Assembly (NCBI RefSeq): GCF_010550675.1
Contig: NZ_JAAGOA010000011.1
Coordinates: 124,001 to 188,000, forward strand
Length of the DNA: 64,000 nucleotides
Reading direction: 5' to 3'
Source of the DNA: Phytoactinopolyspora halotolerans
GTDB taxonomy: Bacteria > Actinomycetota > Actinomycetes > Jiangellales > Jiangellaceae
Shown here: positions 44,645-52,558 of the stretch, one piece after another
Numbering within the stretch: position 1 is the stretch's first letter
Layout of the letters: each line of letters opens with the position of its first letter
Position numbers and translations under genes: made by a program
The notes under the pieces: model-generated
The model's input: the letters and a program-made list of their open reading frames with translations, nothing else
The model's database searches: none
What the model was told of the DNA's origin: nothing

Positions 44645-44957
44645 GACTGAAGAACCCTTCCGCACACTCGAATCTCTGGCGCCGGCGCGCACATCGTCGT
44701 GCTGTTCAGGTCTCGACCCATGACGGGTCCGCAACCCGCGGTGTGCCGGAACCTCTCCTGGCCCGACGCCTCACCCTAGTACAGGGCAGGGTGGATCGCG
44801 CCAGCGGAGCGTCCGGGGAACGTTCAGGGAAGCGCTCCGGGAACATCGCCGGTGAAGCTCCAGGGAAACGGTCCAGGGAGCGCGGAGATGCCCGCGGAAC
44901 ATCGCGAAGCATCGTCCCAGTGCGTGGGATGTTTCGTCCTCGTGACAGGAGAGGACA

Positions 44958-44963
44958 TACGCT
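44958..44963 (+). promoter_or_regulatory. -10 hexamer of leaderless DAHP synthase mRNA
   Basis: TACGCT is followed by 7 nt and GTG 44971. No ribosome site is visible. Confidence 0.5.
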
Positions 44964-44970
44964 TAGCCGC

Positions 44971-46332
44971 GTGACCTCGCACGCGGATTCTGAGCTGTTC
45001 GCCGACCTGACCGCCGCGCTGGGCAGCCTGCCGGCCGCGCAGCAGCCGGACTGGCCGAACCCTGTGGCCGTGGATGAGGCCGTGGCCGAGCTGCGGTCGA
45101 TGCCGCCGCTGGTGTTCGCCGGTGAATGTGACCAGCTGCGTGAGCATCTCGCCGCCGTCTCGCGCGGCGAGGCGTTTCTGCTTCAGGGCGGCGACTGCGC
45201 GGAGACGTTCGACGGCGTCACCGCGGACAACGTGCGAAACAAGCTCAAGACGTTGCTACAGATGGCGGTCGTGCTGACCTACGCCGCCGGGATGCCGGTG
45301 GTGAAGGTGGGCCGGCTGGCCGGTCAATACGCCAAGCCCCGGTCGAAGCCGACGGAGACGCGCGGCGACGTGACGCTGCCGGCGTTCCGCGGTGACATTG
45401 TCAACGGGTTCGAGTTCACCGAGGCGGCGCGCGTGCCGGACCCACGCCGGCTGGTCCGGGCGTACCACGCCTCGGCGGCGACGCTGAACCTCACCCGCGC
45501 GTTCGTCGGCGGTGGGTTCGCCGACCTGCATCAGGTGCACGCCTGGAACACGGACTTCGTCCGGACCTCGCCCGCCGGTCAGCGGTACGAGCGCCTTGCC
45601 GGGCGGCTCGACCAGGCGCTGCGGTTCATGCGGGCGATCGACATCGAGTCGGAGAATCTGCGCACGGTCGAGCTGTACTCCAGCCATGAGGCATTGCTCC
45701 TGGAGTATGAGACCGCGTTGACCCGGGTGGACGCCCGCACCGGCGCGCCGTACGACGTCTCCGGGCACTTCGTCTGGATCGGTGAGCGGACCCGCCAGCT
45801 CGATGGCGCGCATCTGGAGTTCGCCTCCCGGATCCGCAACCCGATCGGGGTGAAAGTGGGCCCCACGACGTCGCCGGACGACCTGATGGCGCTCGCGGAC
45901 AAACTCGACCCGGAGCGGGAGCCGGGCCGGTTGACCTTCGTCACCCGGATGGGCGCCGGCAAGATCCGGGATGCCCTGCCGCCGCTGATCCAGAAGGCGA
46001 CGGCCAGCGGCCTGGTGGCGTCCTGGGTGTGCGATCCGATGCACGGCAACACGTACGAGGCGCCGAGCGGGCACAAGACCCGTAAGTTCGACGAGGTCAT
46101 GGACGAGGTCCGCGGGTTCTTCGAGGTACACGCCGCCCAAGGCACCCACCCGGGCGGCCTGCACATCGAACTCACCGGCGACGACGTGACCGAATGCGTC
46201 GGCGGGGGAGACCCGATCGCGGAGGACGGTCTGTCCAGCCGGTACGAGACGGTCTGCGATCCCCGGCTGAACCGCACACAGTCTCTGGAACTGGCCTTCC
46301 TGGTCGCCGAACTCTTGGAGACAGCCAACTGA
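44971..46332 (+). CDS. aroG: Class II 3-deoxy-7-phosphoheptulonate synthase
   Basis: A 453-residue class II (plant/mycobacterial type) DAHP synthase joining phosphoenolpyruvate and erythrose 4-phosphate, the first shikimate step. Signatures: FLLQGGDCAETFDG, GRLAGQYAKPRS, SSHEALLLEYE, VGPTTSPDDL, WVCDPMHGNT and HIELTGDDVTECVGG. It starts at GTG 44971, 7 nt after TACGCT; the frame is open further upstream but that part is repetitive Arg/Gly/Ser and unconserved. An unrelated class I DAHP synthase lies at 61729-62796. Confidence 0.95.
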   Translation: MTSHADSELFADLTAALGSLPAAQQPDWPNPVAVDEAVAELRSMPPLVFAGECDQLREHLAAVSRGEAFLLQGGDCAETFDGVTADNVRNKLKTLLQMAVVLTYAAGMPVVKVGRLAGQYAKPRSKPTETRGDVTLPAFRGDIVNGFEFTEAARVPDPRRLVRAYHASAATLNLTRAFVGGGFADLHQVHAWNTDFVRTSPAGQRYERLAGRLDQALRFMRAIDIESENLRTVELYSSHEALLLEYETALTRVDARTGAPYDVSGHFVWIGERTRQLDGAHLEFASRIRNPIGVKVGPTTSPDDLMALADKLDPEREPGRLTFVTRMGAGKIRDALPPLIQKATASGLVASWVCDPMHGNTYEAPSGHKTRKFDEVMDEVRGFFEVHAAQGTHPGGLHIELTGDDVTECVGGGDPIAEDGLSSRYETVCDPRLNRTQSLELAFLVAELLETAN

Positions 46333-50446: not shown

Positions 50447-51508
50447 TCAATAGCGCATCCCCAGGGCATCCTGGACGTCGTCGAGGGTTCTCCGGGCGAT
50501 CGTGCCCGCGCGGTCGGCGCCTGTCCGGAGCACGTCTCGCACCAATCCGTCGTCGGCGGCCAGCTCGGAGCGACGGGCGCGCAACGGCCGTAGGTGTTCG
50601 TTCACGGCCTCGGTGACGACGGCCTTCAGGGCGACGGCACCGCCCGAGCCCACCTGCTCCGCTACCTGCTCTGCCGAGAAACCGGTGCACATCGCCGCTA
50701 TGAGCAGCAGATTCGCCACTTCGGGGCGACGGTCCGGTTCGTAGGTGATATGCCGCTCGCTGTCCGTCACAGCACGGCGGATGAGGCGGGCCGTGACGTC
50801 CTGGTCGTCCCGCAGGGCGATGCCGTTGCCCCTGCTCTTGCTCATCTTCCGGCCGTCCACGCCGAGCAGCACGGGCGTCTGGGAGAGCAGCCCTTGCGGT
50901 GGAGTGAAGAGCTGTCGGCCGCCGCCGAACCGTTCGTTGAAGCGGCGAGCGATGGTTCGTGCCTGCTCGATGTGAGGAAGTTGATCAGCCCCGACAGGTA
51001 CCAGGTTCGCGTGGCAGAACAGGATGTCCGCCGCCTGATGTACCGGGTAGGTCAGCAGCAGCCCGCTGATCGAGCTGATCCCGGCCGTCGTCGCTTCGTC
51101 CTTGACGGTCGGGTTGCGCTGCATCTCCGAGACGCTGGTCAACGCGAGGAACGGCAACAGCAGCTGGTTGAGCGCCGGGACGGTACTGTGCGCGAAGATC
51201 GTGGTCCGGTCTGGATCCAGTCCGGCGGCCAGGTAGTCCAGCACCAGCTCGCGGACGTTCACGCCGACCTCGCCCGGGCGGTCACGGTCCGTGATCACCT
51301 GGTAGTCGGCGATGACAATGAAGGTCTCCACACCCAGGGCCTGCAGGTGCACCCGGTTGCGCAGGGTGCCGAGGTAGTGGCCCAGATGCAACGGACCGGT
51401 GGGCCGATCTCCGGTGAGAACGCGGTACCGCTGGGGATGGGCGGCGACCTCCGTCGTGTCCGCCACGAGCGGGGTGGTCGTCGTGCTGGTCGCGTGCGTC
51501 GTGGTCAT
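50447..51508 (-). CDS. trpS: Tryptophanyl-tRNA synthetase, attenuator-controlled
   Basis: A 353-residue class Ic aminoacyl-tRNA synthetase charging tRNA-Trp. HIGH-type motif in GPLHLGHYLGTL (near 41) and KMSKS in DGRKMSKSRGN (near 219). The N-terminal ~25 residues are Thr-rich. ATG 51508 has GGAG upstream. The leader contains a Trp-codon peptide and mutually exclusive hairpins. In Streptomyces coelicolor an auxiliary, indolmycin-resistant TrpRS is known to be controlled by ribosome-mediated attenuation, so this is probably the inducible, second enzyme rather than the housekeeping one. That assignment is an inference. Confidence 0.94.
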   Translation of the reverse strand: MTTTHATSTTTTPLVADTTEVAAHPQRYRVLTGDRPTGPLHLGHYLGTLRNRVHLQALGVETFIVIADYQVITDRDRPGEVGVNVRELVLDYLAAGLDPDRTTIFAHSTVPALNQLLLPFLALTSVSEMQRNPTVKDEATTAGISSISGLLLTYPVHQAADILFCHANLVPVGADQLPHIEQARTIARRFNERFGGGRQLFTPPQGLLSQTPVLLGVDGRKMSKSRGNGIALRDDQDVTARLIRRAVTDSERHITYEPDRRPEVANLLLIAAMCTGFSAEQVAEQVGSGGAVALKAVVTEAVNEHLRPLRARRSELAADDGLVRDVLRTGADRAGTIARRTLDDVQDALGMRY

Positions 51509-51582
51509 GGTCTGCTCCGATGTGTGTCGGGGCCGCCGACGGCGGGCAGACCGGTTGTGCACCCGTGGGTGTGAGATACCTG

Positions 51583-51605
51583 CTGGCCGCCCGGACGGCG
51601 GCCAG
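51583..51605 (-). terminator. Attenuator terminator hairpin upstream of trpS
   Basis: On the minus strand CTGGCCGCC (51605-51597) pairs perfectly with GGCGGCCAG (51591-51583), 5-nt loop. Its first arm can instead pair with GGCGGCC (51629-51623) inside the leader ORF, forming the antiterminator. Confidence 0.7.
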
Positions 51606-51619
51606 TGGAATGCGCGTGG

Positions 51620-51670
51620 TCAGGCCGCCAGTTTCGGCAGCCACCACCAGCAGCGCAAGGTAGGGATCAC
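51620..51670 (-). CDS. Trp leader peptide with three consecutive Trp codons
   Basis: A 16-residue ORF reading MIPTLRCWWWLPKLAA, from GTG 51670 to TGA 51620. Three UGG codons (51649-51641) sit at the 5' side of a stem (GGCTGCC/GGCGGCC) that competes with the antiterminator. With scarce Trp-tRNA the ribosome stalls on UGG and the terminator does not form. The start is 7 nt after CATACT, so the leader is likely translated from a leaderless mRNA. Confidence 0.75.
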   Translation of the reverse strand: MIPTLRCWWWLPKLAA

Positions 51671-51677
51671 GTCGTCA

Positions 51678-51683
51678 AGTATG
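51678..51683 (-). promoter_or_regulatory. -10 hexamer of trpS attenuator transcript
   Basis: CATACT on the minus strand, 7 nt before the leader GTG at 51670. The -35 region is not clear. Confidence 0.5.
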
Positions 51684-51770: not shown

Positions 51771-52391
51771 TCAGGCGACGTACTCGGCGAGCCAATCGTT
51801 GAGCGGCCGCGCGAGGCGCAGGAACTCCACCACCGTGTCCTTGGCGGCCGAAGTGCCGAGCCACGCCTCCGCCGGCCAATGCCGCCACGCGATGATGCCC
51901 TTGTGCCGGAGCAGCTCCACGCGTGGATGATCCTTGGCGTAGCCGCGAGGCGCGGTCTTCAGGTACTCGCGGGCGGTGACCTCCACGTCCTGCTTGATCA
52001 GCTCGTCGACCAGCGCGCGCAGCTCGTCTCCGGTCTCGTCGTCATCGACGGCGTGCCGGTACCGGGACAGCTGATCGGCATCCATCATGTATATGCCCGA
52101 GCCGGCGGCCAATCCGTCGGCGGAGAGCTGGACGTAGCCACCACGGTCCAGCGTGGCGGCGATCGTCGTCTTGTACGGAGACTTGTCCGCGCTGAAGCGG
52201 ACATCCCGGTTCGGGCGGAAGATCTTGCCCTCGCCGAATTCGGGCTCCAGCTCCGTGAGCAGCTCCACCATCGGTCCACGCACGTCACGGTCGTAGATGT
52301 GCTTGTGCGCGGTCCAGTACGTGCGCGAGTTGTCCGCCTCCAGACCCTCGTAGAATTCCAGAGCCTCGGCCGGCCAGCCGTGAAACGCCAT
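51771..52391 (-). CDS. DUF2461-family protein
   Basis: A 206-residue protein of the DUF2461 (TIGR02453) family, widespread and of unknown function. Conserved parts: FHGWPAEALEFYEGLEADNSR, GKIFRPNRDVRFSADKSPYK, AGSGIYMMDADQLSRYR, LLRHKGIIAWRHWP. ATG 52391 (MAFHGW) fits the family start and has GGTGG upstream; an ATG 7 codons earlier is possible. No neighbours suggest a partner. Confidence 0.85.
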   Translation of the reverse strand: MAFHGWPAEALEFYEGLEADNSRTYWTAHKHIYDRDVRGPMVELLTELEPEFGEGKIFRPNRDVRFSADKSPYKTTIAATLDRGGYVQLSADGLAAGSGIYMMDADQLSRYRHAVDDDETGDELRALVDELIKQDVEVTAREYLKTAPRGYAKDHPRVELLRHKGIIAWRHWPAEAWLGTSAAKDTVVEFLRLARPLNDWLAEYVA

Positions 52392-52558
52392 GTGATCCAC
52401 CACCCCTGCCATGTGCAGAGCAGAAGAGAACCCCCTGCGAACGGCAGTCTGCCAGATCGGCCCGACAACCGGCTCAGGCGCTCGGCCGCCGGTGACTGTG
52501 CCACCGGGTTCGCCGCATCACTGCGTCGCGCCGGCCGGGCCTGTTCTGCCTCTGCGTC

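Follow-up and report, generated by a model that had tools for sequence, protein, structure and literature searches.

An auxiliary trpS gene behind a short leader ORF

The window, by which we mean the whole 64,000-nucleotide stretch of Phytoactinopolyspora halotolerans DNA that was analysed, carries on its minus strand a gene for a tryptophanyl-tRNA synthetase (TrpRS), preceded by a leader ORF and by a series of complementary RNA segments (Table 1). The 16-codon leader with its three consecutive UGG codons and the pairings 1:2, 2:3 and 3:4 in front of trpS, which the original prediction had read from the letters, were all confirmed on that strand. A search of the genome for a second trpS, which had also been proposed, was successful: there are two trpS genes, the one in the window and a housekeeping gene on contig C23.

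Table 1. Features of the trpS leader region, with positions as in the window
Feature	Sequence	Position	Strand	Evidence or remark
-10 promoter element	CATACT	51678..51683	-	7 nt upstream of leader GTG; leaderless transcript predicted
Leader ORF	MIPTLRCWWWLPKLAA	51620..51670	-	GTG...TGA
Leader start and stop	GTG, TGA	51670-51668, 51622-51620	-	16 codons
5′ arm, lower stem of hairpin 1:2	UGCGC	51653..51657	-	fold; cross-family cognate pairing; in-family compensatory changes
Sensing codons (Trp)	UGG x3, consecutive	51641..51649	-	WW or WWW kept in relatives
Segment 1	GGCUGCC (DNA GGCTGCC)	51636..51642	-	fold; cognate pairing
Segment 2	GGCGGCC	51623..51629	-	pairs with 1 or 3; fold, cognate pairing, geometry
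3′ arm, lower stem of hairpin 1:2	GCGCA	51611..51615	-	fold
Segment 3	DNA CTGGCCGCC, RNA CUGGCCGCC	51597..51605	-	pairs with 2 or 4; fold, covariation, cognate pairing
Segment 4	GGCGGCCAG	51583..51591	-	forms the putative terminator hairpin with segment 3; hairpin not followed by a U-tract
Hairpin sequestering the trpS Shine-Dalgarno (SD)	arms GGUCUGC (51552-51546) and GCAGACC (51515-51509); SD GGAG (51518-51515)	51509..51552	-	fold; SD occlusion; anti-SD/SD cognate pairing
Possible fifth segment	GGCGGCC	51531..51537	-	complementary to segment 3; moderate statistical support
Auxiliary TrpRS, TrpRS II-like (type B)		50447..51508	-	353 aa; ATG start

The synthetase is of a TrpRS II-like type

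The best PDB match of the encoded enzyme was 1yi8, the TrpRS II of Deinococcus radiodurans (2.2e-64). In a quick tree, the enzymes of this kind, here called type B, grouped with Deinococcus TrpRS II and apart from the housekeeping TrpRS (SH-aLRT 100), and the Streptomyces TrpRS1-like enzymes (type A), which share about 38% identity with type B, the window's type, formed a clade of their own. Since this is a quick tree with long branches (L027 and Deinococcus), the exact root of type B is uncertain. All 103 type B sequences have Gln at the His43 site and Arg in place of Gln9, positions that rest on the numbering of what we take to be the B. stearothermophilus TrpRS sequence. His43 was present in all eight housekeeping-set sequences compared, one of which, the divergent TrpRS L027, has Arg9, and type A sequences combine His43 with Lys9 or Gln9. 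Type A, type B and housekeeping TrpRS are nevertheless clearly separated in it. The original prediction had suggested that the window's enzyme is the auxiliary TrpRS of Streptomyces, an identity that does not hold: the enzyme is outside the type A clade, has no Lys9/His43, and belongs to type B with Deinococcus TrpRS II.

Type A was linked to S. lividans by the leader peptide, not by a named SCO3334 sequence, since the leaders of type A genes (MTTRTCTQLWWAA) agree with the TrpL2 peptide of S. lividans, MMTRTCTQLWRAA (PMC8079986). The H43N exchange leads to indolmycin resistance in the B. stearothermophilus TrpRS (PMC4899734), and the Gln at the His43 site makes resistance of the window's enzyme plausible, as a suggestion only. 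Type A trpS genes (L134, L139, L141, L154, L155, L157, L149, L159 and L162) were seen to have a leaderless WW leader of their own, with similar hairpins. In three Streptomyces with three trpS genes, the WW leader is on type A and none is on type B.

The leader ORF and its occurrence

Tandem Trp codons within a short leader ORF, as expected of an attenuator, are present in the window, and a WW or WWW leader was found upstream of all 18 trpS2 genes of the window's family (own genome included). The leader peptides of relatives also end alike (WWLPS, WWPS or WWRPS). In 45 of 46 candidate leaders, the start codon is preceded at 6–8 nt by a -10-like hexamer A....T, with A as its second and T as its sixth letter, a spacing that speaks for leaderless translation. 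The spacing in the window is comparable, in line with the leaderless leader originally suspected, and from it we infer that transcription starts at or adjacent to the GTG and that ribosomes read the leader ORF on a leaderless mRNA. A consensus promoter scan of the window leader was empty and gave no -35 match. Leaderless TrpL leaders are known in S. lividans (PMC8079986).

All type B genes fetched were put to a strict test for a leaderless promoter, a short ORF and WW. Of the 103 type B trpS, 45 passed and the other 58 had no such leader by this test, whereas none of 25 housekeeping trpS passed it and 3 of 2258 control windows (0.13%) did. A relaxed test added three, with separated or single Trp codons. 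A covariance model (R1) found the trpS2 element in all genomes of the window's family with a trpS2 gene and did not find it in the four genomes lacking one; there was one additional weak match in genome G003. Outside the family, it matched in one Streptomyces-like genome, upstream of a type A trpS. No Rfam family matched the window leader, even permissively.

The leader was present in 38 of 44 genomes with a second trpS versus 4 of 24 with a single one, a tie for which p is only indicative because the genomes are related. As the leader is so closely tied to a second trpS, the switch may mark a stand-by enzyme. In Austwickia and Ornithinimicrobium (L065, L066 and L082), an attenuator was observed upstream of what is apparently the sole trpS. 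Type B trpS was also seen in metagenome-assembled genomes labelled Bdellovibrionales, Acidobacteria, Paludibacter and Tannerella (L091, L098, L112 and L113), probably by misbinning or gene transfer.

Folding, covariation and geometry of the RNA segments

Folding of the 87-nt leader gave -48.9 kcal/mol, compared with -33.8 ± 3.4 for its shuffles (z -4.47), and none of 200 shuffles was as good. Hairpin 1:2 contains GGCTGCC/GGCGGCC as originally described, and is larger than had been stated: UGCGC pairs with GCGCA in a lower stem, and the Trp codons themselves are taken in, through UGGU pairing with ACCA (51620-51617). The loop of hairpin 3:4 is GTCCG.

Within the window's family, six pairs differed on both sides where shuffles gave 2.0 (0/500), and most of these six belong to the lower stem of 1:2. 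In a set of 30 diverse sequences, 93.6% of the cells of helix 3:4 were paired, with a covariation score of 0.491 versus 0.214 (0/500). In the family, the cores of helices 1:2 and 3:4 hardly vary. Covariation support for the two therefore derives from the lower stem and from distant relatives, whose sequences are not independent. MAFFT alignment loses the register of segment 2 across families, and pairing 2:3 was therefore assessed by comparing cognate with non-cognate pairing between 18 groups; cognate pairing was better (p 0.0006). The same was true of the lower stem of 1:2 in the 18 groups (0/20000 permutations). The cognate scores of 1:2 and 3:4 themselves are not independent evidence, since both were chosen as hairpins in each sequence. 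All three mutually exclusive pairings thus show compensatory change, 1:2 and 3:4 by covariation and 2:3 by cognate pairing. The original prediction had staked itself on a conserved WWW leader and compensatory stem changes in relatives; a WWW or WW leader and such changes were both found, so that this check did not refute it.

The geometry needed for a ribosome to choose between these pairings is conserved as well. The distance from the first UGG to segment 2 is 14–21 nt, and segment 2 ends at most 12 nt past the beginning of the stop codon, so that a stalled ribosome would mask segment 1 and a ribosome at the stop codon would mask segment 2.

The Shine-Dalgarno hairpin and a possible fifth segment

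Further downstream, the SD of trpS is enclosed in a hairpin. Such trpS SDs are more occluded than those of other genes (median unpaired 0.21 versus 0.50, p 8e-7), and the anti-SD and SD arms pair better within than between groups (p 0.005). The hairpin probably lowers the translation of leaky read-through. A GGCGGCC-like stretch, the possible fifth segment, with homologous sites in relatives, lies about 30 nt upstream of the trpS start. Its complementarity to segment 3 exceeded that of shuffles in 22 of 46 loci and was greater for cognate than for non-cognate pairs (p 0.0002–0.0006); composition contributes to this signal, because a control with segment 4 was also weakly positive (p 0.02).

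In the window, segment 4 looked by eye like a plausible translational antisequestor, a candidate that the accessibility test rejected. Accessibility of the SD was 0.245 with segment 4 freed and 0.237 with a shuffled segment 4 (p 0.97), and in the window it went from 0.20 to 0.21. A Trp-responsive translational switch through the SD hairpin was thus not supported by accessibility.

Proposed mechanism and alternatives

We consider it very likely that the region is a ribosome-mediated attenuator, responsive to charged tRNA-Trp, of the gene for an auxiliary TrpRS II-like synthetase. The leader, the pairings, their covariation, the geometry, the restriction to auxiliary types and the tie to a second trpS, all drawn from sequence and comparison, bear out the attenuation logic originally proposed; ribosome stalling and the response to Trp are what we infer. 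When Trp-tRNA is ample, the ribosome would reach the UGA and mask segment 2, hairpin 3:4 would form, and most transcripts would stop before trpS. When starvation or a blocked housekeeping TrpRS leaves too little Trp-tRNA, the ribosome would stall on the UGG run and mask segment 1, and 2:3 would form in place of 3:4, letting trpS be transcribed.

Termination is the weak link of the attenuator reading, against which the lack of a -35 match and the 58 type B trpS with no such leader also count. The terminator had been predicted to lack a U-tract, and indeed the tail after 3:4 in the window (CAGGUAUC) has 2 U in 8, unlike a canonical intrinsic terminator, and a consensus terminator scan of the window leader was empty. 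Nearly all members of the window's family are without a U-tract at this place, one having 3 U in 8, and the sequence by itself does not make termination evident; the claim is therefore that the element works like a Trp attenuator, not that it holds a canonical intrinsic terminator. Presumably 3:4 ends transcription without a U-tract, with Rho or as a hairpin that needs no U-tract. Structured 3′ ends poor in U are a common sight in Streptomyces (PMC8269248, PMC12207403), and for the U-less ones of S. clavuligerus the authors invoke I-shaped terminators or Rho (PMC8269248). Rho would also suit a version in which the translated leader shields the RNA from Rho and 3:4 merely stabilises the 3′ end that Rho leaves. 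By itself, such a version leaves the conserved alternative pairing 2:3 and the ribosome geometry unexplained, and we regard it as unlikely.

The missing U-tract, together with the sequestered SD and the cognate pairing of its arms, could also point to translational attenuation, in which stalling in the leader frees the trpS SD (for example, through segment 4 pairing with the anti-SD arm) and 3:4 is no terminator. There is a precedent in the mycobacterial cysteine-responsive leaderless leader ORFs, as cited in PMC13236596. Against this, freed segment 4 does not raise SD accessibility over a shuffled one, and a U-tract does follow 3:4 in several Streptomycetaceae and Streptosporangiaceae-type relatives of like architecture. 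This mechanism is accordingly the less likely one, and we think it quite improbable. A chance origin, in which the WWW ORF and the hairpins are accidents of a GC-rich leader, has to be weighed too, as hairpins are frequent in GC-rich DNA and the triple UGG motif (UGGUGGUGG) occurs 404 times in the own genome. The motif alone being so common, the case for an attenuator rests on comparison and conservation, and it is the conservation, covariation, promoter spacing and specificity that refute chance, to which we give practically no credence.

Comparison with known attenuators

The attenuator of an auxiliary trpS, that of S. coelicolor TrpRS1, was reportedly described by Kitabatake et al. in 2002. 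Streptomyces trpS attenuators have been published for trpS2 of S. avermitilis (PMC1262725) and as TrpL2 of S. lividans (PMC8079986). The window element shares with them a leaderless leader ORF with Trp codons, alternative hairpins and an auxiliary TrpRS gene downstream, and with S. lividans TrpL2 also the lack of a U-rich tail. The synthetases differ: the Streptomyces TrpRS1-like enzymes are of another clade with Lys9/His43, whereas the window's enzyme has Arg9/Gln43. These two residues are common to it and D. radiodurans TrpRS II, which lies on the same side of the fully supported branch. The element is a further case of published trpS attenuation, on another TrpRS family and absent from Rfam.

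The attenuators of the Streptomyces and Corynebacterium trp operons (PMC1262725) resemble it in their WW/WWW leaders and gGCC-type complementary triplets, but they control biosynthesis genes and their terminators are followed by poly-U. With the E. coli trp attenuator (Rfam trp leader) it shares the four-segment logic, and it differs in its lack of an Rfam match, its leaderless start and its missing U-tract.

The Streptomyces-type control is hereby extended to another TrpRS family, across many actinobacterial families and with leaderless leaders whose promoter spacing is fixed. The close tie to a second trpS suggests a stand-by TrpRS, called on when the main one is out of action, as it would be under natural TrpRS inhibitors among other conditions. 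The element also adds a conserved example lacking U-tracts to the question of how transcription is ended in the attenuators of GC-rich actinobacteria. That one attenuator design was adopted by two non-orthologous auxiliary actinobacterial TrpRS families, and that the fifth segment and the SD hairpin add to it so that transcription and translation are both controlled, is a tentative idea which we hold to be doubtful.

Neighbouring and other genes

Like D. radiodurans, the window's genome has a gene for a bacterial nitric oxide (NO) synthase (contig C34:266442-267482). Unlike the D. radiodurans case, it is unlinked to trpS2. Within the window's family, 17 of 18 trpS2 genomes have an NO synthase gene, versus one of five type B genomes outside it; as the two genes do not track each other there, a link between them is kept only as a lead.

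A class-II DAHP synthase gene, for the first step of aromatic amino acid synthesis, lies in the window at 44743-46332, roughly 5 kb away from trpS. The gene immediately upstream of the leader, on the same strand, is a DUF2461 gene (51771-52412), the 3′ end of which seems to lie upstream of trpS2 in a congener (L006) as well.
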